64,000 nt of DNA from Pseudomonadota bacterium (GTDB taxonomy: Bacteria; Pseudomonadota; Gammaproteobacteria; JAADHS01), in contig JAKACW010000024.1 in assembly GCA_021821045.1 (NCBI GenBank), positions 1 through 64,000 on the forward strand, given 5' to 3'. The notes below the pieces were generated by a model, which did no database searches, was not told the DNA's origin, and was given only the letters and a program-made list of their open reading frames with translations. Made by a program: the position numbers and the translations under genes. This document shows, in pieces, positions 16,449-52,071 of this stretch (the stretch's first letter is position 1; each line of letters starts with the position of its first letter).

Positions 16449-18341
16449 TCAATGAGGTAAAAGTTTGACTCGCTGGAGTTCGTCGGCCACTGCGCGCGCT
16501 AAGGCCTTGGCGCCGTTAACGTTGAGATGGACATCGTCATAATAAATTCCCGTCGTGCGCGGCAGTGCGGTGGCCACGTCGAGACAGTGCGCGCCGCCGG
16601 CGGCGCAAACATTGAGGCTCTGCTGGTTGTACTGGTCGAGAAGAGTATTCAGTACGGAAGCTGAGTAGTAAGTGTTGGGCGGGTTTTGGCTAAATGGGTT
16701 CGCATCGACGCTGCCGAACCAGAGAAGATTTTCCTCGCTGGGGGTCAGGTTCGTCCGGTACAGGGAACCTTGGGTGAGCAGCATCAAGGCGATGCCGGAC
16801 TCGCGTGCTATATTGGCGATCGAGTCCAGGTTAAAGCGATACGCGGCAAGGCATTCGCCTATGTCGGGTATACGCTGCTCTTTTCTCGCGACTTGCCGCC
16901 GTCGCCGTTGTTCGTTGTAGAACTCGGCGGCTTGGTCTTGTACCACGAAGTCGAGAGGCACAACGGGCCCCGATGCGGCCGGTTCGAACAGCGCCCGTTT
17001 GGCGCGGCGAAAAAGGTCAACCAGCCGCCAGGACGAATTCATCTGCGCGGGGCGAATTTCGTGAAATACAAACTTTCCGTAGTCCTCGAAAAATCCGGGC
17101 TGGCGGATCATGCGCGCGCTGTCGCGCATCGCCGCCATCCCGCCCGAGATACAAGAATTTAGATCATTGATCCCGGCTTGCAGAATCACCACGTTCGGTC
17201 GTAATTCGCTCTGGTAGTAGTGGAACTGAACAACGTGACCGAAACTGTTCAGTCCCGACTTGCCCGCATTGCCGACCCAGACGGGCTTCGAAAAGGACTC
17301 GGTGAGCAGTGTCTGGAGCACGTGAGGCCAGGCGTCCGGGTCGTCCAGGAAAAGTCCTTCCGTGCTGCTGCCTCCGATGACGAGAATGCGCGGCGTGGAA
17401 TCTTCCTCGGGCACCGGATCCCCGCGAACCCCGGCGTTGTTGGTCGAGAAAAACGTCTGCTTGTTGTCGACGCCGATCATGATGCCGGGCGAGGGGACAA
17501 AACGGGTGACGCGATTGGGCGCGTGGAGCAGGTGGCTGACGACCGGTGGCTCGGGGAGAATCAGACGCAGCGCAAATTCGCTAAAGAGCAGCGTCAGCAG
17601 GGCCGAGACGATGAAGAGGGCGAAGTTCTTGAATCTGACGCCCAAGAAGCCGAGCTTCATCGCGATCAGCATCACTGTGACCGTGGCCAAAATCCCGAGC
17701 AGCACGAACGTGCGGGCGGTCATCGGATCGCGTGTTGCAGTTCGATCGCCCGCGATGCCCAGGCGCTCGGCGTCGTCCGCTAGATGACGATTCCATGTTT
17801 CGTCATCAACCACTTTCCGAGCTTCCGTCAAAATCGCTTTCGCCTCGTCGATATTTCCCAGCCGCTCGTGCGCGACAACGCGCAAGTGCTCCACTTCCGC
17901 CAGCCGTTGTGGATTGCTCAGTAAGTATTGGCGTGCCTGGTCGAGGTATTTTTTGGCCTTGTCGAGATTTCCGGTTTCGATATAAAGCTGGCCTGCGTAC
18001 TGTAGGTAGTTCGCGCTCGACATCAAGTCGCCGCGTCGTTGATGCAAGGCAAGATTCTGCTCGAAATAGCGCAGCGCTATGTCGTGCTCCCCCAGCGCCG
18101 AGTGCGCGAATCCCAACTGGTGGCGCGCCACGGCCGCGTCGCTGGCGCGGGAGAGCCGTTCAAACAGGTCGAGCGCTTTCTCGTAGGCGCCGATGGCGTT
18201 TTGAAAATGACCGGAACCGAACAATTGATCGCCTTCGCGATGAAAGGCGCGAGCGTCGTCCAGGTCGGTCGCCAGGGCGAGGTCGGACGCGCAGCAAAGA
18301 ATTAACGCAATTGCGGCGGCAAGCCAGGCGCGGTTCGTCAT
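16449..18341 (-). CDS. TPR repeat plus membrane-anchored SGNH/GDSL hydrolase-like protein
   Basis: TPR region (GHFQNAIGAYEKALDLFERL...), TM segments, GGSSTEG, NAGKSGLNSF, LQAGINDLNS and DDVHLNVNGAKALA; ATG 18341 has a good SD (AGGTGGGG). Confidence 0.8.
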   Translation of the reverse strand: MTNRAWLAAAIALILCCASDLALATDLDDARAFHREGDQLFGSGHFQNAIGAYEKALDLFERLSRASDAAVARHQLGFAHSALGEHDIALRYFEQNLALHQRRGDLMSSANYLQYAGQLYIETGNLDKAKKYLDQARQYLLSNPQRLAEVEHLRVVAHERLGNIDEAKAILTEARKVVDDETWNRHLADDAERLGIAGDRTATRDPMTARTFVLLGILATVTVMLIAMKLGFLGVRFKNFALFIVSALLTLLFSEFALRLILPEPPVVSHLLHAPNRVTRFVPSPGIMIGVDNKQTFFSTNNAGVRGDPVPEEDSTPRILVIGGSSTEGLFLDDPDAWPHVLQTLLTESFSKPVWVGNAGKSGLNSFGHVVQFHYYQSELRPNVVILQAGINDLNSCISGGMAAMRDSARMIRQPGFFEDYGKFVFHEIRPAQMNSSWRLVDLFRRAKRALFEPAASGPVVPLDFVVQDQAAEFYNEQRRRRQVARKEQRIPDIGECLAAYRFNLDSIANIARESGIALMLLTQGSLYRTNLTPSEENLLWFGSVDANPFSQNPPNTYYSASVLNTLLDQYNQQSLNVCAAGGAHCLDVATALPRTTGIYYDDVHLNVNGAKALARAVADELQRVKLLPH

Positions 18342-38537: not shown

Positions 38538-39125
38538 ATGCGCGTCATGACTGAATCTCCGGAAAGCGTCGAGCAATGGCTTGAGTTGTACGGCGATAGC
38601 CTGTTCAAGTTCGCTCTCGCTCGAGTGCGCAACGTTCAGGTGGCAGAGGACTTGGTGCAAGAGACGTTTGTCGCCGCCATCAAAGCGCGCGACAGTTTCG
38701 AGCAGCGGTCCCAAGTTAAAACCTGGCTGACGGGGATTCTCAAGCATAAAATTATCGACCACCAGCGCCGCTGCGCGCGCGAACAAAATTACGAAGACGC
38801 GGATACGTTGTTTGATGAGTTGCGTCAGGAGAGTTTCGATGCTTCCGGTCACTGGCAGATCGATGTCGCGCAGTGGAGTAACCCCGATCAAGCCTTGGAG
38901 CGCGAGGAGTTCTGGGCGGTTATGAATCGGTGTCTCGATGAATTGCCGGAAAAAATGCGAGAAATATTCCTGTTGCGGGAGATGGAAGGCCTGTCGGCGG
39001 AGGAGATTTGTAAGGCCTTGCCGGTGTCTTCGACCAACAATGTGTGGGTTATTTTGTCCCGCCTGAGGATGAAGTTGCGCCAGTGTTTGGAGCTGCGCTG
39101 GTTTAACCGCGCACCTGATGGGTAA
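38538..39125 (+). CDS. ECF-type RNA polymerase sigma factor
   Basis: Sigma region 2 (AEDLVQETFVAAIKA) and region 4 (LPEKMREIFLLREMEGLSAEEICKALPVS). Confidence 0.93.
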   Translation: MRVMTESPESVEQWLELYGDSLFKFALARVRNVQVAEDLVQETFVAAIKARDSFEQRSQVKTWLTGILKHKIIDHQRRCAREQNYEDADTLFDELRQESFDASGHWQIDVAQWSNPDQALEREEFWAVMNRCLDELPEKMREIFLLREMEGLSAEEICKALPVSSTNNVWVILSRLRMKLRQCLELRWFNRAPDG

Positions 39126-39130
39126 TTCAC

Positions 39131-39385
39131 ATGCTGTCGTGTAAAGAGGTGACGGAGTTAGCGTCGCGCCGCCAGGACGGGGTTCTGCCCTTGCGCACCC
39201 GCGTGGCCATGCGCCTGCACCTGATGGTATGCAGAATGTGCACACGGTATGTTGCCCAGCTCGGCTTCATTCGAAGAGTTATGGCGGTTTATCGTGAGCG
39301 CGAGGAGGTCGGTAAACGCGAGGGGCTCAGCCGCGACGGCCGGGCCAAGATCCGTGAGGCGATTCGCCGTGAGTCCGAAAAGTGA
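39131..39385 (+). CDS. Zinc-finger anti-sigma factor-like protein
   Basis: HLMVCRMCTRY (HxxxCxxC ZAS motif); directly downstream of the sigma factor. Confidence 0.8.
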   Translation: MLSCKEVTELASRRQDGVLPLRTRVAMRLHLMVCRMCTRYVAQLGFIRRVMAVYREREEVGKREGLSRDGRAKIREAIRRESEK

Positions 39386-39953
39386 TCGGCGGTTGATCCG
39401 CTGGGGCGCCCCGTCGGCCGCCATTCTCCTTTGCTGCGCGTCGCACGCTGCCTACGCTCAATTCCTGCAAATCGATCTCGGCAATCAAAGCGTGAACATC
39501 GCCGTGGAACAGCATCGTTTTCGCGGTTTCAATGCTTCGCTGCTGTATACGGAGCAGAACGGTCATCAGGATCTGTTGGCCGGTGCGGGTTACACCGCTA
39601 AGAGCTGGCTGCTGGGGCGCGCGCAGAATTTTTACCTCTCCACCGGCGCAAAGTTTTACGCGACGGACGTGCTCGAATCCTATGTCAACACCGTGGCCTG
39701 GCATAACGTGATTCGAATCGAACCGCGCCGCTGGCAAGCAATGGAGTTGGCGGCCGTTTTGGATTACGGGCCGTCGTTCGCCACGTTTCGCGACGGCGAG
39801 TCCTTTTGGGGCATTGCCGTTCAACTTGATTACAGTCTTTCGCACCAGAGCAACGCGATTGTCGGCTGGCGCCGCCTGGGTGTGGAATTAACCGGCGGGG
39901 ACGAGGCCGATATCGAGCGCGGCGGCTACGTCGGATTGAGTTGGCTTTTCTGA
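39369..39953 (+). CDS. YfaZ-like outer membrane protein
   Basis: GTG start overlapping the anti-sigma stop; signal peptide AAILLCCASHAAYA; alternating beta-barrel pattern ending GYVGLSWLF. Confidence 0.72.
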   Translation: MSPKSDRRLIRWGAPSAAILLCCASHAAYAQFLQIDLGNQSVNIAVEQHRFRGFNASLLYTEQNGHQDLLAGAGYTAKSWLLGRAQNFYLSTGAKFYATDVLESYVNTVAWHNVIRIEPRRWQAMELAAVLDYGPSFATFRDGESFWGIAVQLDYSLSHQSNAIVGWRRLGVELTGGDEADIERGGYVGLSWLF

Positions 39954-40078
39954 AGATTTCCGCGTCTGGGATCCGATCCTTCGTTTCCTTGGGTTTGCTC
40001 CGGTTCGGGATAAATCATTGGGCCGCCCTGCCGATACGGGCTAGGACAACTCCGAACGGGACGCCGAGCACCGCATCT

Positions 40079-42082
<2,004 letters not shown>

Positions 42083-42335
42083 GCCTGCTTTCGGGACGAG
42101 GCGATACGTGGTCCGGGCGGCGGATTATTGCCGTCCAGCGTCGAAACTTGCGTGGCGATGCCGTAGGAGGAACGGATTGTCGTCGTTCCGGCGGCGGCGA
42201 ATTACCCGGAAAATATGAGCATCGACTCGAGCCGTGAGCATCGCGAGCCAAAACTCCAGTCAAATCAGATTAAAAGAATTTCACCTCTTGCCGTTATGTT
42301 TATCGGATCCAAAAATAGCGCGTCGAACACATTGG

Positions 42336-42350
42336 TGGCCCGCGAATTGC
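42336..42350 (+). promoter_or_regulatory. Sigma-54 (-24/-12) promoter TGGCCCG-CGAA-TTGC
   Basis: TGGC-N8-TTGC(T) with correct GG-GC spacing of 12; upstream of ORF 42393. Confidence 0.7.
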
Positions 42351-42392
42351 TTTACTAACTACGAATGATGATGCGACGTAAGGAGTAGGCAG

Positions 42393-42707
42393 ATGACGAG
42401 TCCGATCGATAACAATGTCATGCCGGCCATGAGTGGCGGCAAGGGCAAGCGTAACGAGGAAGCCGGCGGTCAGGCCCGAAAAAGCGCGGGCGGCGCCGTC
42501 GAGGGTGGCGCCACGGTTGTTGGCGATAAGGTCAATATCAGCTCGGCGGGAAGCCAGCTCAATGCATCGCCGCGGGTGCGGCTAGATGATGCCACTCAGG
42601 CCATGCAAATGGCGCAGCGCATCAAGAGCGCATTCGCCGAAAATCCTGGGTTGGCGTTGTCAGCCCAAGGCGTTCAGGTCAAGGGAGAGCTACAGGGATT
42701 GCTGTAG
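42393..42707 (+). CDS. Small protein, possibly FlgM-like
   Basis: SD AAGGAG 9 nt before ATG; predicted sigma-54 promoter; GDKVNISSAGSQL resembles the FlgM (S)VxLSxxAQxL segment, followed by a predicted helix AQRIKSAF. Confidence 0.6.
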   Translation: MTSPIDNNVMPAMSGGKGKRNEEAGGQARKSAGGAVEGGATVVGDKVNISSAGSQLNASPRVRLDDATQAMQMAQRIKSAFAENPGLALSAQGVQVKGELQGLL

Positions 42708-42799
42708 CAGGCGGGTAGGATTGGGGAACACGGACGTTCGTCTCCTTACCTTTGCGCTGTCTCTTCATGGGATCATTGTTGTTAATCCACTACGGCACC

Positions 42800-42836
42800 A
42801 AGTGTGCAATGCAGACATTGTCTGCTATGCGCACTT
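42800..42836. promoter_or_regulatory. Long dyad AAGTGTGCAATGCAGA-cattg-TCTGCTATGCGCACTT (candidate enhancer/UAS)
   Basis: 13 of 16 arm positions complementary; centre about 130 bp upstream of the predicted TSS of the second sigma-54 promoter. Confidence 0.55.
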
Positions 42837-42923
42837 TGTACGATCGTGATTGTTCAGTCTCTGCCTCATAGTAAATTCGACAAAACGCTACGATTAAAAA
42901 CACTTAGCGAAAGCTAAGCGATA

Positions 42924-42939
42924 TGGCACATCCATTGCT
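42924..42939 (+). promoter_or_regulatory. Sigma-54 (-24/-12) promoter TGGCACA-TCCA-TTGCT
   Basis: Near-exact consensus with correct GG-GC spacing of 12, upstream of the NtrC-family activator gene. Confidence 0.7.
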
Positions 42940-43236
42940 GTTGTCGCAATGCGGCGTTCGAAAATTGGTGCCGCGTTGCGCACACCCGTTCGGGTTTCTA
43001 CGATTTTCCTTGACGCATCAATTTAGTGCGCAGCAAAAGCGTAGGCGAATGGCGACGCAAAAAATTCAAAACCCCGATTTTTCAGCCATTGCTTTGCGAA
43101 AAATGCGAGTTAATATGCTTTTGGCAGTCACTCCAACAATCTTCCCAATTTGCCACGTCCATGTAACTTGGCAAAGCGTACAAAGCACGGATCGCTTAGC
43201 GCGTCGAACGCGCGCACATTCTCGGAGGCGCACATC

Positions 43237-44847
43237 ATGAATCTGGCAGGATCGAATACACCAATCGCATTGGGCGCGAGCGCAACGCTTGAACTCGCGA
43301 AGATCGTCGGCGGCTGTGTCGAGCCGGACGTGACGGTCAACGAAATGCTTAAGTTCCTCGCGCGTGAGGCTGGATTGGAGAAAGTCGGCTTATTGTTTCC
43401 CGACCGTGCCACCGGAACGCTGCGTGCCGGCTACAGTTTCGCGACCGGTGCCGATGCCCGTCTTCCCGGCGAAGGTCCGGCGAGCGAAGGAATTGCCGCC
43501 AAAGTGATGAGCACCGCGCAAATTGCGTTGTTGCCCCGCGGTGTGCCGGAATCATCCGCGGCGTACCGACTGCTCGGCCCACGCTTGGGAGAGGCCAGTG
43601 TCGACAGTTTGTCCATTGTGGCCTTGCCCGTGCTGCAGTGCGACCAAGTGGTCGGGGCGCTGGTGGCGGTCGCCGGGCATGCGAGCCGCGCACCGTCGCG
43701 AGAGGTGCTGTACATGCTGCAAATGGCGGCTGTGCTGATTGGCCAGGTATTGCGCATTGGCGAGTTGACTGAGAGAAGGAATCAAGCGGCGGCGGTTTCC
43801 CAAGAGCCGGACCTGCGCGGCGCGAACACGCCGGAAGCCCGCGTCTTCGGCATCTTGGGTTATAGCCCGGCGCTGCGTAAGTCTATCGACAAGGCTATGC
43901 GCGCCTCGCAGTCGGACGCCACGGTATTGATGGTGGGCGAGTCGGGCAGCGGCAAAGAACGCTTCGCCCGCATGGTTCACCTTGCTAGCGCGCGGTGCGA
44001 CGGACCCTTCGTCTGTGTGAACTGCGCGGCGATCCCTCCGGATTTATTGGAGTCTGAGTTGTTCGGCCATGAGCGAGGTTCGTTCACCGGCGCCACTGGA
44101 ACGCGGCAAGGCAAGTTCGAGTTAGCCGACAAAGGAACCCTCTTTCTCGATGAAATCGGCGACATGAATTTGGACCTGCAGGCGAAGCTGTTGCGCGCGT
44201 TGCAGGACAAGGTCGTGCAGCGCGTCGGCGGTACCCAAGAAATCCCGACCGATGTGCGCATCATCGCAGCCACCAATCGGAATCTCGAAGAACTCATCAA
44301 GCAGGAGACCTTCCGGCTCGATCTTTATTTTCGCCTGAATGTCTTGAAGATTCAGTTGCCGTCTTTGCGCGAGCGGCGGGGCGACATCCGAATGCTCGCC
44401 TTATATTTCTTGACCCGCGAGAATCAACGCTACCGGCGCAACTTGGTGTTGACCGGTCCAGCCTTGGAGCGGCTGGAGAATTACGATTGGCCGGGCAATG
44501 TCCGTCAGTTGGAAAATGTCATCGAACGGGCGGTCATCATGGCTGAGCGCGAACTCATTTTCGCCGACGATATCGAGCAGCTCTTAAAGGACGAACTCGT
44601 TGTCGACGGTCCCGCAGTCGTGCCGATCAGCGTGGGCGGCATGCACCGAGTGTCGCCATCGCCCCGCGAGCATGAGGATGAACGCGTGCGTCCCTATCAA
44701 CGGGTCGATTCGATGGATGGCGGCGACATCGTGCGAGCGATAAGCGTCGCGAAGGGCAACAAGACACTGGCCGCGCGCACCCTGGGCTTGACGCCCCGGC
44801 AGCTGCACTACCGTCTGTCAAAGCTGGGTTTGCGCGAGCACCACTAG
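43237..44847 (+). CDS. GAF-AAA+-Fis sigma-54-dependent transcriptional activator
   Basis: GESGSGKERFARMVH, ELFGHERGSFTGATGTRQGKFE (GAFTGA-type loop as GSFTGA), GTLFLDEIGDMNLDLQAKLLRAL; C-terminal Fis HTH KTLAARTLGLTPRQLHYRLSKLG. Confidence 0.94.
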   Translation: MNLAGSNTPIALGASATLELAKIVGGCVEPDVTVNEMLKFLAREAGLEKVGLLFPDRATGTLRAGYSFATGADARLPGEGPASEGIAAKVMSTAQIALLPRGVPESSAAYRLLGPRLGEASVDSLSIVALPVLQCDQVVGALVAVAGHASRAPSREVLYMLQMAAVLIGQVLRIGELTERRNQAAAVSQEPDLRGANTPEARVFGILGYSPALRKSIDKAMRASQSDATVLMVGESGSGKERFARMVHLASARCDGPFVCVNCAAIPPDLLESELFGHERGSFTGATGTRQGKFELADKGTLFLDEIGDMNLDLQAKLLRALQDKVVQRVGGTQEIPTDVRIIAATNRNLEELIKQETFRLDLYFRLNVLKIQLPSLRERRGDIRMLALYFLTRENQRYRRNLVLTGPALERLENYDWPGNVRQLENVIERAVIMAERELIFADDIEQLLKDELVVDGPAVVPISVGGMHRVSPSPREHEDERVRPYQRVDSMDGGDIVRAISVAKGNKTLAARTLGLTPRQLHYRLSKLGLREHH

Positions 44848-44866: not shown

Positions 44867-45121
44867 CTATTTCGCCGACACGACGCATTTTGTGCGCGTC
44901 GGGAAGTGGTACAGTCCTTGCGCTTCTCTGAGTTCGCGCAGTTTCTGTTTGGCGGCTCGAAAGCCGGCCCGGTAGCTGGCTTTGAAGTTGGTCAGCGTGT
45001 TGCTGCGCATCCCGTGCTCATATCCGCTTTGATAAAGCTGTTTATTTACAGTGGTCGGAAGTTGGATCGCCAATTCCGTGGCGCGCGCCAAGTTGGGTTT
45101 GAGTTTAACGACCGTGGCCAT
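44867..45121 (-). CDS. Hypothetical small basic protein
   Basis: ORF with SD (ggaggtgtcccATG on the minus strand); no recognised domain. Confidence 0.55.
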   Translation of the reverse strand: MATVVKLKPNLARATELAIQLPTTVNKQLYQSGYEHGMRSNTLTNFKASYRAGFRAAKQKLRELREAQGLYHFPTRTKCVVSAK

Positions 45122-45214
45122 GGGACACCTCCAGGTGAAGGGTTCTATGGTTTTTATCGGCCGCAAGGGGGCAGTGACTGAAGAATTGATCAAAAGCCGC
45201 TTTGGAAGTGCCAG

Positions 45215-45811
45215 TTAAGCTTTGGCGTGCAGTTTTGCCGTGAGCTCGTCGATTTGTTTCTTCATGACGCTCATCATCCGAGCAAGCTCCTGGCGCACAT
45301 AGATATTTTCGACATGCATCTGCAGAACGAAGACCAGCTTCTCAAGCAGGGCGAGATCGGTCTTGGTGAATTTGCCGTCCCCTTTCTTATTTAACACCTG
45401 AATTGCGCCGACGACCTGTTTACGGGTGACGCCCGGCACCGGGATGCAGATCATGCTGCGGGTGACAAAGCCCGTCTGGGTCGCCACCAAATCATGGGCA
45501 CCCACTTGGCCTTCCATGTCGTATTCAACCAGCATCTTTCCTTCCAGGATAACGCGGCCGACGATCGAGCCTGCCGTGGGCACCGTTACCTGCCGCTCCG
45601 CGAGCCCCGTGCCGGCTTGAACCCAGGCGTTTTTGCTGAAGGGATCCAGAATAAAAATGCTGCAGCGCTCGGCTTCCAGCGCGCGCGGCATGACTTCGAC
45701 CAAGAACTCGAGTAAGTCCTTGTTGCCGTGGCGGGTTTTCCACGCTTTTTCAACGGTATCGTGCTTTTGCTTGAGTTCGATCAGTTGTTGCTGCAGTTGG
45801 CCGATGTCCAT
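45215..45811 (-). CDS. GAF domain protein
   Basis: RCSIFILDPFSKNAWVQAGTGLAERQVTVPTAGSIVGRVI...ICIPVPGVTRKQVVGAIQVLNKKGDGKFTKTDLALLEKL. Confidence 0.88.
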   Translation of the reverse strand: MDIGQLQQQLIELKQKHDTVEKAWKTRHGNKDLLEFLVEVMPRALEAERCSIFILDPFSKNAWVQAGTGLAERQVTVPTAGSIVGRVILEGKMLVEYDMEGQVGAHDLVATQTGFVTRSMICIPVPGVTRKQVVGAIQVLNKKGDGKFTKTDLALLEKLVFVLQMHVENIYVRQELARMMSVMKKQIDELTAKLHAKA

Positions 45812-45945
45812 AGCGGTGGTCCCAATGTATTTCCAATGTTTGGCTTATCGGACGGCCGCGCCGGGGCTTGATCGCTTTTTATTCAATATATGCGCCGCTC
45901 GGCCGATTCTACTTCCGTTCACTCACATTTCAGGGACGACACCTG

Positions 45946-47265
45946 GTGTTCTGGTTTCGAATTTTCCGGCCGGCGGCCGCCTTTCTTGCGCTCCTCCTTG
46001 CTGTCACGGGGGCCCCTCGAGCCGACGAATCAACCGAAACCTTGCGCCGCCTGACCTCCCAGCAGGATTTCCGCGCGGCGTACGACCTGGCAGCCGGGTT
46101 GGTGCCCGAACTCGCCGGTGAGCCCGATTTCGACTTCCACTTTGCTTTGGCGGCGCTGGGTATCGGCCGTGCGGGAGAGGCGGCATTGGCCCTGGAGCGG
46201 GTCCTGATGAGTCAACCCAGCAATGAACGCGCACGGCTGGAGTTGGGGCGCGCCTATCTGGCCCTCGGAGAGTACGGCAACGCCAAGCGTAGCTTCGAGC
46301 GCGTTTTGGCGGCCAATCCGCCGCCAAATGTTCGGACGCGAGTCGAGAACTTGCTTGTGTTCATCGAGAAACAGCTAACCCGCGGCCGGTGGCGCCCCAG
46401 TGCCTGGGGCAGCGCCTCGGCCGGCTACGACTCAAACGTCAACGCCGCCACCGATGTGGCCAGCGTCAGCGTTCCGGCCCTGGGCGGCAACGTCGCCCTT
46501 AACCCCTCCAGCCGGGAAATTGAGGACGGGTTCACAGAACTTGCGGCCGGGGGAGAGCTTAAATACCAAGTGAACCAACAGGCATTTGGATTTGGCGCCA
46601 TGAGCGTACGCGATCGAAACAATTTTGATACAGATGCATTCGACACCGTGGTTGCGAGCGCGCAATTCGGTTGGGATCAAATGCGCCAGGACGATCGTTG
46701 GCGGATTCCGGTCAGCGTCGATGGTCTGTGGTTGGATGGCGAGCGCTATCGCGAGTCCGCGGGCCTGGGCTTGGAGTGGAATCGTGAGCGCGAAGGGCGT
46801 AGTGCGCCCGGTGTATTTGTGCAGGGCGGAGTGATCTCCTATCCGACCCAAGCGCAGCGTGATGCTCGCTATTGGACCGCTGGTGCTGGACTGACCAAGC
46901 GCTTTGCGGCTCGGTTGCTTGGCCTCAACGTCTACTACGGTGACGAAACCGCGGAAGACAGCGCGGCCGCGTACAACGGCCGCCGCTACGGCGGGGCGCG
47001 CGTGATTGGACAGTGGAGCGTGACGCAGCGCATGACGGCGGTGGCCCAAATTGGTGCTCAGGAGAGCGAGTACGATGCTGCCGACCCAGTTTTTGCCAAG
47101 GTTCGCCGGGAGTCTATGACGCACGGTGCGATCGGATTGGCGTGGCGAAGTAGCGGACGTCTGACATGGCGGTTGGACGGATCTTTCATCGCGAACGACT
47201 CGAATCTCGAGCTCTACGAGTACAGCCGCTCCGTGATCAGTGGGAGCGTGAACTATGCGTTCTAA
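45946..47265 (+). CDS. TPR plus beta-barrel outer membrane protein, SLAM (DUF560)-like
   Basis: Signal peptide after GTG 45946; TPR (ERARLELGRAYLALGEYGNAKRSFERVL); barrel strands with SAGYDSNVNAATD; terminal SGSVNYAF. Confidence 0.75.
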   Translation: MFWFRIFRPAAAFLALLLAVTGAPRADESTETLRRLTSQQDFRAAYDLAAGLVPELAGEPDFDFHFALAALGIGRAGEAALALERVLMSQPSNERARLELGRAYLALGEYGNAKRSFERVLAANPPPNVRTRVENLLVFIEKQLTRGRWRPSAWGSASAGYDSNVNAATDVASVSVPALGGNVALNPSSREIEDGFTELAAGGELKYQVNQQAFGFGAMSVRDRNNFDTDAFDTVVASAQFGWDQMRQDDRWRIPVSVDGLWLDGERYRESAGLGLEWNREREGRSAPGVFVQGGVISYPTQAQRDARYWTAGAGLTKRFAARLLGLNVYYGDETAEDSAAAYNGRRYGGARVIGQWSVTQRMTAVAQIGAQESEYDAADPVFAKVRRESMTHGAIGLAWRSSGRLTWRLDGSFIANDSNLELYEYSRSVISGSVNYAF

Positions 47266-49735
47266 CTCTTTTCGAATTTGGCTGCAGGTCGCCATTGCGG
47301 CGTTGTTGATTCAAACGGCATTTGTCGTTCGCGCTCAGGCGGCTGATGAGGCGGGCGTTGTCATTGTTGTGAGCGGCGCGTTTGTCGCCGAACGCGCAGA
47401 CGGCACCACGCATACGCTGCAACGGAGATCGAAGTTTTTCGTCGGCGATGTTTTGCGCTTAAGCGAAGTTGGGCGGGCGCAAATTCGTTTCCATGACGGC
47501 ACGATTCTTTCCTTGGCCAGCGGCACCGATCTGAAGGTGGATGCCTTTCGCTGGAGCGAAAGCGCCCCCGCGGACGAAGTCGCCAATATCGTGACCTTGC
47601 TGAAAGGCGGCTTTAGAACCATTACGGGCGCAGTGTCGAAACGCAACCGTGATGCGTATCGCGTGAACACGCCCGTGGCCACCATCGGCGTGCGCGGCAC
47701 CCACTACAGCGTGGTGCTCAGCAGCGATCTGTTCGTGGGCGTGTGGGAGGGCGGCGTAACGCTGACGAATGACACCGGCAGCCTGGATCTTGGGTTGGAT
47801 GTGGCTTACCGCTACGGTCAGGTGAGTGCCGACCAATCCTTCCAGGGCTTAGTCGACGCGCCTGCCGTACTGATAGAGACAATGGATCCTGTCGGGACCG
47901 ATCCCGGTGCCACTGCTCAATCCGATGGCGCCGCAGAGAATGAAGCTGATGCGAGCGAACAAGCGTCCGCGGGTGCAGACGGATCCATGGCGGACGCGGG
48001 TGACGGCGTTGCGGAATCCTCGGGTGATTTGAGCGTCGCCACGGCGGACGGCGAAGCCGGTTCATTCTCGGACGCGACGACAACGGCCGTGACCTCGACA
48101 ACTCAACCGTTGACTCCGGTTATACAGCCGACCGTGCCGGTCGCCGCCGACGCGCGGTTGACCGATGTGGAAACGGCGTCTCTGACCAAAGGCGGGTTCG
48201 TGCTGTTTGGTGGCGTGGGTGCCAACGGCTCCTACGGCGGCAAGGCGAGCGACGGCGCCGCGGGCGACCCGCTCTTCGCCGATAACGGGCTCTATCCCGG
48301 CGCAGCGGAATTCGACACGCGACTTGCGGATGCTGTTGTTCGGCGCGGCAGCGCCGGAACAAACCCGACGGTGAGCTATGCTTCATTCGGCGCGACCATG
48401 GGGGACTGGTCCGGCACGACTACGAATCCGGTGACGGTTCAGACGGACGCTACCGACGCGAGCATTCTGACCAGCTATTCGAGCACCGCCTTTTGGCTGA
48501 CGTTTGACTACACGTCGCTGAGCGCGCTGCAAGGCCTGTCAGGTCAAGCGCAATACCGCAATCTTGTCGATTTCAAGGCGGGAGCGAGTCACGGCAGCGT
48601 GTCGGATTTTTTCATGACGACCGATGTCGACTTTGCCACCGGCACGGTTGGCGGCGGCATGTCGATTTACACCACCGGCGGCGACATTTGGCAGGTCGAC
48701 TATGATGGCTCGATTCAGGGCGCCGCGCTCAATCTCAGCATCGACGCGCTCGACAGCAAACTGTCCACGGCGGTTGACGGCGATATGGTGGTGACAGGCG
48801 AGATCAAAATGGCCTTCGCCGGCGCCAGCGGCGATGGCTTGGCCGGGTATTTCGATGTTCAATCCGCCACCACCGGTTCGGTCAGCGGAACGCTGCATGA
48901 CGTGGACGGGATTTTTCTGCTCGATAACACGCCCGTCGGCGACCGGCGTCTAACGACAACAGAGAGCGCCAGCATCGATCGGCTGGGCTTCGCTGCGATA
49001 GGCGGCCCCGTCGGCGGATTGTTTGACGGTAGCGCCTCTGCCGGCGGTGCGAACGGCGATCCCATACTGGTCAGCAAGGAACTCGACATCGACGGCAACT
49101 ACCCGGCCGCCGTGTTGCGCAGCGGGACTGCGACGCTGAATGCGCCGACGACGTTGGCCTTTGGTACAAAGCAGGTGGAATGGGGCGAGTGGAATGCCGA
49201 TCTGACCAATCAAGCCCACAGGTACACCAGCGCCGACGATCCGCTGCAGAAAGAGTTGGTCATGGATAGGGTATATTGGCTCACCGTTGAGCCGACGGAT
49301 CCGAGCGTGCTAAGCGCGCTGGCTAGCAACAACAAGACGGGCACGTGGACAGGCACGTTGTCCCCGTCGCAGTTCTCCGGCGTCAACGCCGGAGGGAGTC
49401 CGATCGCGAGCATGTCGTTCGATGCCACGATTCAGTTCGGAACCGGCGCGGTGACAGGCGCGGCAATGAGCGCGACGGTGATGCCCGATACGTGGAACGT
49501 CAACTTCAACGATTCGACGCTCGCAGGCGGCGTTCTTAATCTCACTGCGAATCCCACAACCAGCACGATCTCCGGATTGGGCCTGACCGATAATACGGTC
49601 AGCGGCGGACTGCGGGGCGCCATCACGGGCGACGCGGGCGACACGATCGCGGCGAGCTTCAGCTTGCGCTCGAACGAAGATCCCAACATCAATCTGAACG
49701 GCGCGTTCGCCAAGACGGGAACGATCTCGCCCTAG
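47255..49735 (+). CDS. FecR domain protein with two-copy C-terminal barrel-like module
   Basis: Signal peptide without lipobox; FecR-like RSKFFVGDVLRLSEVGRAQIRFHDGTILSLASGTDLKV...VNTPVATIGVRGTHYSV; internal duplication; overlaps upstream CDS by 11 nt. Confidence 0.82.
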   Translation: MRSNSFRIWLQVAIAALLIQTAFVVRAQAADEAGVVIVVSGAFVAERADGTTHTLQRRSKFFVGDVLRLSEVGRAQIRFHDGTILSLASGTDLKVDAFRWSESAPADEVANIVTLLKGGFRTITGAVSKRNRDAYRVNTPVATIGVRGTHYSVVLSSDLFVGVWEGGVTLTNDTGSLDLGLDVAYRYGQVSADQSFQGLVDAPAVLIETMDPVGTDPGATAQSDGAAENEADASEQASAGADGSMADAGDGVAESSGDLSVATADGEAGSFSDATTTAVTSTTQPLTPVIQPTVPVAADARLTDVETASLTKGGFVLFGGVGANGSYGGKASDGAAGDPLFADNGLYPGAAEFDTRLADAVVRRGSAGTNPTVSYASFGATMGDWSGTTTNPVTVQTDATDASILTSYSSTAFWLTFDYTSLSALQGLSGQAQYRNLVDFKAGASHGSVSDFFMTTDVDFATGTVGGGMSIYTTGGDIWQVDYDGSIQGAALNLSIDALDSKLSTAVDGDMVVTGEIKMAFAGASGDGLAGYFDVQSATTGSVSGTLHDVDGIFLLDNTPVGDRRLTTTESASIDRLGFAAIGGPVGGLFDGSASAGGANGDPILVSKELDIDGNYPAAVLRSGTATLNAPTTLAFGTKQVEWGEWNADLTNQAHRYTSADDPLQKELVMDRVYWLTVEPTDPSVLSALASNNKTGTWTGTLSPSQFSGVNAGGSPIASMSFDATIQFGTGAVTGAAMSATVMPDTWNVNFNDSTLAGGVLNLTANPTTSTISGLGLTDNTVSGGLRGAITGDAGDTIAASFSLRSNEDPNINLNGAFAKTGTISP

Positions 49736-49748
49736 GCGTAGTTCGGCT

Positions 49749-51965
49749 CTATTTTTCGCGACGTTCGTAGACCCCGTCCCAAGCGGCGTCCAAGCCGCGC
49801 TGGTGTAAATCGGCGATGCGCTGTAGATAGAGCCGGTAGACCTGCGTTTGGGGATGCTGCCGAGCGAGTTGTTCGAACATATTTCGGGCTTCTTCCCACT
49901 CGCGCCGCAAATACGCGGCATAAGCCAACTCGTGGTGCGCCAGTTCGCGCGCCGTTTGTTCGGTAAGTTCACGTTGCGGGCAGATGAGTTCATACACCGC
50001 TACCGCTTCGCTCTTGCCCTTGACCCGCACTCGATCCAATTGTCGGAACACCATGTCGCGGCTGCGCGCCTTGGTTGCCTCGCCCACCACCAATTCCACC
50101 CCGTAGTATTTGGTCAGGCCTTCGAGTCGGGAGGCCAAGTTTACGGTGTCGCCGATGACCGTGTATGCCCGGCGAAACCGCGAGCCCATGTCGCCCACAT
50201 TCATGATGCCGCTGTTCAAGCCAATGCCGATGTGGATCGGCGGCAGGCCCTGTTCGACCAAGCGTTGGCGCAACGGCGCCATGGCAGTGAGCATTTGCGC
50301 GGCCGCATCCAAGCCGTGCTGGGCGTGATCGCCATCGGCGACGGGGGCGCCCCAAAACGCCATGATCATGTCCCCGACGTATTTGTCGATGGTCCCGCGC
50401 TGGGAGAAGATGATTTGGGTCATCTCACCGAAAAACTGATTGAGGAGCGCTCGCAAGCGATTGGGGTGGAGCGTTTCCGATAAGGTTGTGAAGTCCCTAA
50501 CATCGGCGAACAAGACGGTCATGTCGCGGCTTTCCCCTTCGATTGAGAAGTCCTCGTTTTCGTTCATCATGATGTCGACGAGCTGCGGCGGGACATAGTG
50601 GCCGAACATGCTTTTCAGAGCACGTCGTCGCCCGGCTTCTTTCACAAATCCAAAGCTGATGTTGAGCGCGGCCAGCACGCCCACTTGCAGCAATGGGAGC
50701 GCCAGATCGAGCGCCAGTTGCTGCTCGCTCCAGAACCACGCGTTGATGCCCGTCAGCGTGGCGATGACGGCGAGCGAAAGGGCGACCAGCCACAGTGGAC
50801 TGAGTAGGGGCAGGACAATCGCCAGCACGGCGCCGCCCAATGTCAGTAGCATCAGGTTGACGCCGTCGGCCCATCGTGGAGCCATGGGAAAATTCTCGGC
50901 GAGAATCCCCGCAAGCATGCTGGCGTGGATCTCGACCCCGGGGTAAATGCTCTGCAAAGGCGTAGCGACCACGTCCCCGAGGCCGAGCGCCGTGGCGCCG
51001 ACCAGGACGAGTTTGTTGGTGAACGTTTCGGGAGGTAGTTTGCCATTTAGCACGTCGGAGGCGGATATGTAGCGGAAAGACGGCGACGGGCCGCGGTAGG
51101 GAATGAGCGCGCGACCGCTCGCGTCGATGGGGACGCTGACTGATCCGAAATGCAAGGACTCCGGCGTGGCGACATCGCCGATCGCTCCGGTTCTGATCTC
51201 GATGTCGTTTATCAAGTAATACAAGCGAGCCATCTCCTCGGACAGGCTGCCGTAAAGCTTGCCGTCGAAGTGCATCAACAAAGGCGTGCGGCGCATAACG
51301 CCGTCGAGGTCAGGTAAGGTTGTCATGAAGCCGTTTCCGGCCGCTGCGCTTTGCAGGCGGTGTTCGTTGGTGGTGTAGGAGCGGAGGCTGGTGATCTGGG
51401 TGACCGGCCACGGTAGAGTGTTTTGCTCCAGCAGCGGTGCGGGCAGCGCGCCGGGCCGAGGATTGGGTTCGTCGTGGAACAGGTAGCCCAAGACAACATC
51501 GCGGTTTGCCAGCGAGGCCGCGAACTGCTCATCGTCGTCAAAGTCGACGATGAGCGCTTGCAGGTCATCGCGTGTTTGCGCCGCCGCGGTCTCGCCCAGC
51601 GCGTCGAGTACCGCCGTGGCGTAATTGATTTGCGGTTCCGAGAAGATGACGTCGTAGCCAACGACGACAGCACCGTCCTCGAATAGCGCATTGTTGAGCT
51701 GGGCGATCGTGCGCCGCGGCCACGGGAAGCGGCCGATTTCGGAGAGGCTTTGTTCATCGATGGCGACAATGACGATGCTGTCATCGGAGGGGGCTCGTTC
51801 AATCGGGAGAAGGCCCATGCGTACATCGTAAATAACGCCTTCGAGCCGCAAGAGGAATTGCTTGATGAACGGCGATTCGCTTTGAGACGCGCCGAAGCTC
51901 AGCCCGACAATCAACAGTCCCAACGCAATGGGGATTAGTTTGTCCTTGGTTTCTCGTCTAAGCAT
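49749..51965 (-). CDS. CHASE2 domain adenylate cyclase (class III)
   Basis: CHASE2-like periplasmic region (DSIVIVAIDEQSLSEIGRFPWPR), TMs, cyclase LFADVRDFT, GTIDKYVGDMIMAFWGAP and YTVIGDTVNLASRLE (Lys/Asp specificity pair). Confidence 0.93.
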   Translation of the reverse strand: MLRRETKDKLIPIALGLLIVGLSFGASQSESPFIKQFLLRLEGVIYDVRMGLLPIERAPSDDSIVIVAIDEQSLSEIGRFPWPRRTIAQLNNALFEDGAVVVGYDVIFSEPQINYATAVLDALGETAAAQTRDDLQALIVDFDDDEQFAASLANRDVVLGYLFHDEPNPRPGALPAPLLEQNTLPWPVTQITSLRSYTTNEHRLQSAAAGNGFMTTLPDLDGVMRRTPLLMHFDGKLYGSLSEEMARLYYLINDIEIRTGAIGDVATPESLHFGSVSVPIDASGRALIPYRGPSPSFRYISASDVLNGKLPPETFTNKLVLVGATALGLGDVVATPLQSIYPGVEIHASMLAGILAENFPMAPRWADGVNLMLLTLGGAVLAIVLPLLSPLWLVALSLAVIATLTGINAWFWSEQQLALDLALPLLQVGVLAALNISFGFVKEAGRRRALKSMFGHYVPPQLVDIMMNENEDFSIEGESRDMTVLFADVRDFTTLSETLHPNRLRALLNQFFGEMTQIIFSQRGTIDKYVGDMIMAFWGAPVADGDHAQHGLDAAAQMLTAMAPLRQRLVEQGLPPIHIGIGLNSGIMNVGDMGSRFRRAYTVIGDTVNLASRLEGLTKYYGVELVVGEATKARSRDMVFRQLDRVRVKGKSEAVAVYELICPQRELTEQTARELAHHELAYAAYLRREWEEARNMFEQLARQHPQTQVYRLYLQRIADLHQRGLDAAWDGVYERREK

Positions 51966-52071
51966 ATCGACGTTATCGGCTGGATAGAGCCGGGCCGCCA
52001 ATCATCCTGAGTCCTCGCGCAGGATCGCCTCGAGAGAGATATCGGTTTGGTGGGCTACTTCGAGAAGCGGG

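Follow-up and report, generated by a model that had tools for sequence, protein, structure and literature searches.

A probable diverged and self-wired sigma-54 regulatory module beside a separate sigma-54 promoter in a gammaproteobacterial contig

The window, meaning the whole stretch of 64,000 nucleotides analysed here, carries a gene for a sigma-54 activator (43237–44847, forward strand) preceded by two predicted -24/-12 promoters of the same strand, P1 (42336–42351, TGGCCCGCGAATTGCT) and P2 (42924–42939, TGGCACATCCATTGCT). Both promoters lie inside 839 nt of non-coding DNA around a small open reading frame (42393–42707, forward strand), which encodes a 104-aa protein of an unnamed family and has a ribosome site, AAGGAG, at 42379–42384. 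A putative upstream activating sequence of up to five 7-mers with a period of 9 bp occupies 42797–42839, and a leader of 287 nt (42950–43236) separates the predicted P2 start from the activator. Ahead of P1 lies a hybrid histidine kinase gene with two response-regulator matches (39941–42082), a 47% paralogue of which is found elsewhere in the genome (L170, contig C73). Further upstream, an ECF sigma factor scoring over the cut-off of TIGR02943 is followed by a small zf-HC2 protein (38538–39385), which is probably its anti-sigma factor. Beyond the activator are a gene for a 108-aa protein (44867–45193) and, convergent with the activator, a gene for a stand-alone GAF-domain protein of 198 aa (45215–45811, reverse strand). 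The adjoining region at 45868–52001 encodes a TPR/SlipAM-like outer-membrane protein, a FecR-domain protein and a convergent CHASE2 adenylate cyclase.

The activator is a protein of 536 aa in which Pfam matches delineate the order GAF, AAA+ and Fis-type helix-turn-helix. The Pfam matches are strong for Sigma54_activat (5.9e-69), clear for HTH_8 (2.4e-8) and weak for GAF. The AAA+ domain is intact, and its loop reads GSFTGA, a variant of the GAFTGA type with the F and T kept; with this loop and the C-terminal Fis-type helix-turn-helix, the protein has the characters of a bacterial enhancer-binding protein. The best NCBIfam model is NifA, matched over nearly its full length at 395.8 bits against a curated cut-off of 528.85, and identity as NifA was rejected on this score; none of ten relatives tested reaches the NifA cut-off either. 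Likewise, the NorR model gives 327.1 bits, below its curated cut-off of 476, and this identity was also set aside. Because neither of two sister genera of the same family (G001 and G002) has an orthologue, class-level relatives were used for comparison. In a contig search, the best 80 matches cover mostly the AAA+ domain only and include no close orthologue, and full-length relatives were obtained from 20 genomes of the class. The same genome holds a paralogue with 53% identity on another contig (locus L113, contig C62). In the tree, the two group together with support of 97/93 within a clade of ten activators supported at 99/99, the branch of the window activator being long (1.35) against that of the paralogue (0.43).

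Both promoters stand exactly where the original prediction had put them, and recomputation returned its starts near 42362 (P1) and 42950 (P2) as well as its leaders of about 31 nt to the open reading frame at 42393 and about 287 nt to the activator. In each, the -24/-12 consensus has its GG and GC separated by 10 bp, the site is non-coding, and a gene follows downstream. A single consensus match is weak evidence, because the 4.5 Mb genome contains 59 matches to the pattern TGGCNYN5TTGCW and 49 to its reversed control. With a graded -24/-12 matrix, the weights of which are approximate and follow a Barrios-type consensus, P2 and P1 rank first and second when every 16-mer of the 64 kb is scored on either strand. 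One site of such score is expected in matched random sequence with P of about 0.002, and two such sites appeared in none of 4000 simulated sequences. Moreover, RpoN is encoded in the genome (Sigma54_AID, E 1.8e-17). The check that the original prediction had proposed, conservation of both -24/-12 elements, found the P2 type at eight relatives' loci and the P1 type at five. Since each is conserved ahead of its corresponding type of gene, P1 and P2 are, from comparison of sequences, both very likely to be real sigma-54 promoters. A third consensus site at 50689–50704 of the reverse strand (score 13.3) lies inside the CHASE2 cyclase gene and was taken as a chance match. Additionally, a perfect inverted repeat, CTTAGC-GAAA-GCTAAG (42903–42918, within 42901–42920), lies immediately upstream of P2, with its end 6 nt from the -24 element; a terminator scan lists it for the opposite strand as terminator-like, and it could serve as an extra operator.

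The dyad AAGTGTGCAATGCAGA-N5-TCTGCTATGCGCACTT, which had been suggested as an enhancer of P2, is found at precisely 42800–42836, its centre being about 132 bp upstream of the predicted start. It pairs at 15 of 18 positions, a value reached by none of 200 random sequences (mean 11, maximum 14). The dyad, centred at 42818, sits within the longer period-9 array at 42797–42839, which reads ACCAAGT-GT-GCAATGC-AG-ACATTGT-CT-GCTATGC-GC-ACTTTGT and places its middle unit 106 bp upstream of the base at which the -24 element of P2 begins. An array matrix trained on six relatives' sites, with the window left out, gives its top match in the 64 kb at 42806–42830 (GCAATGC-AG-ACATTGT-CT-GCTATGC) with a score of 16.6, against a best score of 12.1 in 30 random sequences of 64 kb; when the other register of the paralogue's site is used in the matrix, the values are 12.7 for the window and 12.0 for random sequence. 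Genome-wide scans for array and promoter sites were carried out as pattern searches. In these, the pattern RCANTGYNNACAWTGTNNRCANTGY with up to two mismatches matches two sites in the 4.5 Mb and its control none; the window site is the better of the two, and the other (C86:2291, two mismatches) has no sigma-54 site nearby.

The surroundings of the relatives' activators were scanned for sigma-54 sites without the window. At eight loci, seven in other genomes and one the paralogous locus of the same genome, the order is array, sigma-54 promoter, a gene for a YgaP-like protein of about 80 aa, and activator. A strong sigma-54 site lies 550–1020 bp upstream of the activator (in L113, G303, G171/G024, G129, G242 and G102); an open reading frame of 78–86 aa starts 49–96 nt after it, and a gap of 250–680 bp, in some cases with terminator-like hairpins, leads to the activator. 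The small proteins are mutually homologous and exceed the Pfam cut-off for YgaP-like_TM (PF11127, DUF2892), except the one at L174, which stays below it at 16.5 bits. The flanking genes vary at every module locus, among them those for a RecQ helicase, a type II secretion ATPase, a LysR regulator, HDOD and GDPD proteins and others, so the unit consists of the promoter, the small gene and the activator. Genome-wide, at least 17 YgaP-like TM matches in the genome of the window exceed the Pfam cut-off, several of them being paired. At the paralogous locus, a palindromic element, GTGGGAGCGGATCATTCCGCGATTG, is present in tandem and dispersed copies (16570–17230 and 17740–17800 of L113), some lying in the gap that separates the YgaP-like gene from the activator and others ahead of the module. 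Just upstream of that module lies a gene (17822–18316, reverse strand) whose 164-aa product carries a cyclic-nucleotide-binding domain as its only domain.

Upstream of the promoter, 7-mers of the form ACAWTGT recur every 9 bp at all eight module loci, for instance as ACATTGT-GA-ACAATGT-CG-ACATTGT. The distance from array to promoter is 96–108 bp, and where it is 96–97 bp a neighbouring unit lies at 105–106 bp; measured from the array, the sigma-54 site is correspondingly placed in eight of eight cases. Leave-one-out values of the array matrix range from 8.0 to 36.3, and two loci obtained after the matrix was made (L216 and L217) score 37.6 and 33.9, which serves as an independent check. When 369 genomes of the class were scanned for three exact units with two mismatches, sites were found in ten genomes, against four for the control; all three perfect arrays and the G024/G171 pair are module sites. 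Five further array-like matches (L205, L206, L207, L211 and L212) look like chance, a sigma-54-like site being present at L207 only. Among 13 activators outside the clade, no upstream array scores above 8.5. The only clade member without the full module (L220, in G380) lacks both the array and the YgaP-like gene; its activator is immediately preceded by a sigma-54 site, TGGCCCATTTTTTGCT, and may be a further example of a directly wired regulator, one that uses a different enhancer.

Measured against these loci, the window dyad represents the ACAWTGT array in diverged form, which bears out the conservation expected of it. Its outer units are GCAATGC and GCTATGC instead of ACAWTGT, a symmetrical change from A to G and from T to C at the unit ends. 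Its score of 16.6 is the weakest of the family, bar the paralogue's register, most relatives scoring 23–37, and because the outer units differ from ACAWTGT, binding at the window array is less certain. Judged by sequence and by its distance to the promoter, both of which match the arrays at eight other loci with activators of the same clade, the dyad would be an enhancer for P2, as originally proposed. The window module shares the period-9 array at the relatives' distance, with diverged units, and departs from the relatives in the interval that follows, which in them also holds the YgaP-like gene. A profile of the relatives' proteins detects neither that gene nor a remnant of it in 42708–43236 (best E 0.56), and a whole-genome search with PF11127 has no match in the same interval. 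A 63-aa open reading frame at 43049–43240 has a G+C content by codon position of 0.51/0.51/0.43, which resembles non-coding DNA. Furthermore, the leader shows no unusual RNA fold (z -0.55) and no Rfam match.

P1 belongs to a different setting. The 104-aa protein downstream of it has no Pfam or NCBIfam match over the cut-off, and a plasmid search found no match; its G+C content by codon position (0.65/0.49/0.69) is like that of the neighbouring genes. Homologues of 107–112 aa occur in five other genomes (G072, G201, G337, G242 and G129; L227–L231) and share the motif M-x-x-P-[IV]-x-N-N ... D-x-[VIL]-x-[VI]-S-x-A ... LL. In five of five homologues a sigma-54 site scoring 16.0–18.4 lies 88–97 nt upstream of the start, compared with 57 nt in the window. 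None of these loci is linked to the activator module; their neighbours are unrelated genes, namely recJ, metF, a hydrolase gene or a PAPS reductase gene, and each member of the 104–112 aa family stands alone behind its sigma-54 promoter. The family resembles FlgM and the flagellin C-terminus in a D-x-V-x-x-S-x-A-x-x-L stretch and in a C-terminal A-x-A-Q ... LL. Neither identity was established, as the scores are at chance level (flagellin E 0.067; FlgM E 0.65, 14 bits against a curated cut-off of 40.75), and the predicted model is of low confidence (pLDDT 55). A flagellar link of the family is thus a possible, weak lead.

Taken together, these features are probably best explained if 42797–44847 is a diverged duplicate of a self-contained sigma-54 regulatory module. 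By analogy with the family of enhancer-binding activators, the activator would bind the period-9 ACAWTGT-like half-sites as an oligomer, a DNA loop would bring it to the closed complex of RpoN-RNA polymerase at P2, about 106 bp downstream, and ATP hydrolysis would open P2 when the GAF domain senses a signal. In the relatives, the corresponding promoter would drive the gene that precedes the activator and encodes the small YgaP-like membrane protein. In the window, where that gene appears to have been lost, P2 would transcribe the activator itself through the 287-nt leader. As the small gene is absent and P2 faces the activator, positive autoregulation is the best reading. However, the relatives' promoter seems mainly to serve the small gene, and autoregulation would for this reason not be a conserved function. 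P1 and the 104-aa gene would form a separate, adjoining sigma-54 unit, probably under another activator.

The original prediction had placed both promoters under the activator. For P2, the array and its spacing at eight loci favour this; for P1, joint control is unsupported, because no ACAWTGT array accompanies it and three of the five P1-type genomes (G337, G072 and G201) have no clade activator at E 1e-120. A single regulon, in which the activator bound at the dyad serves both promoters by also looping back to P1 about 480 bp upstream, is nevertheless conceivable: a single enhancer has both promoters within 600 bp, enhancers of the sigma-54 type are able to work from a downstream position and across hundreds of base pairs, and the genome holds no second strong array. 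Against it, the P1-type gene is unlinked in five other genomes and has no array near its promoter there, the one match of 11.8 at L229 lying inside the gene. Upstream of P1 itself nothing array-like is found, the best array-matrix score being -16.8 against 16.6 for the dyad, so that one shared regulon is unlikely, though not negligibly so. The direct repeats TGAGCATCG (42216–42224 and 42235–42243), which had been pointed out upstream of the first start and are correctly located, do not alter this picture: no conservation of them was found, and two copies of 9 nt, 19 bp apart, are at chance level (estimated expectation in 300 bp about 0.2).

A different view would make the array and P2 relics of a module that is decaying after the loss of the YgaP-like gene, the activator being made from another promoter. 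The long branch of the window activator, its weakened array and the intact second module in the same genome are in keeping with such decay, but P2 is still the best -24/-12 match in the 64 kb, the activator reading frame is intact, and the outer half-sites have changed symmetrically, as expected for a maintained palindrome; decay is accordingly regarded as quite unlikely. It is very unlikely that the dyad is mainly a feature of the transcript, a terminator of the 104-aa gene whose likeness to the array is incidental. Although it lies 93 nt past the stop codon at 42707 and has a strong hairpin fold, no T run follows it, the terminator scan does not list it, and its region folds only slightly better than shuffled sequences (z -1.88). 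Moreover, only DNA binding accounts for the dyad matching the array, keeping the 9-bp phase and lying 106 bp from P2. That P1 and P2 are chance consensus matches, as the similar genome-wide counts of pattern and control might suggest, is hardly credible, as their positions relative to homologous genes are conserved at five other loci for P1 and eight for P2.

The diverged, self-activating module thus preferred recalls known systems in part. NifA (TIGR01817) has the same domain order as the window activator, and its enhancer likewise stands some 100 bp ahead of a -24/-12 promoter. However, the NifA enhancer is TGT-N10-ACA, whereas the relatives' arrays give TGT-N2-ACA and TGT-N11-ACA and the window dyad TGT-N9-ACA, and no nitrogenase genes were recognised among the neighbouring genes tested here. 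NorR, which responds to nitric oxide, shares the GAF, AAA+ and helix-turn-helix domains and uses a three-site enhancer upstream of a sigma-54 promoter, but its site sequence differs from the window array, and no norVW-type target is present here. The target of about 80 aa in the relatives' modules belongs to the YgaP-like TM proteins, the gene type absent from the window. The single paper found to contain both terms (PMC6710368) assigns a DUF2892 gene to an NnrR regulon of Bradyrhizobium and names sigma-54 only in a reference. A literature search of incomplete coverage, which leaves novelty unproven, found no report of a DUF2892 or YgaP-like gene paired with a sigma-54 activator, nor did a search of similarly incomplete coverage find the enhancer string. 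The regulation is of a known kind, an enhancer-binding activator acting with RpoN, in a new family that is clearly delimited and has a site and a target of its own. It is tentatively proposed, at somewhat less than even confidence, that these activators, of the GAF type, make up a hitherto undescribed sigma-54 activator family, which has an enhancer code of its own (7-mers ACAWTGT with a 9-bp period) and a dedicated small membrane-protein target, and that in the lineage of the window loss of that target led to positive feedback, while the half-sites changed symmetrically.

For most of the sigma-54 activators found in genomes, neither the binding site nor the target is known; in this case, comparison alone yielded the site, the promoter spacing and the target gene. 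Additionally, the conserved promoter allows the unnamed 104-aa family to be assigned to the RpoN regulon. The local rearrangement in the window suggests self-activation, and the window would offer a natural case in which a regulatory switch lost its output gene and became wired to itself, with an intact paralogue in the same genome.
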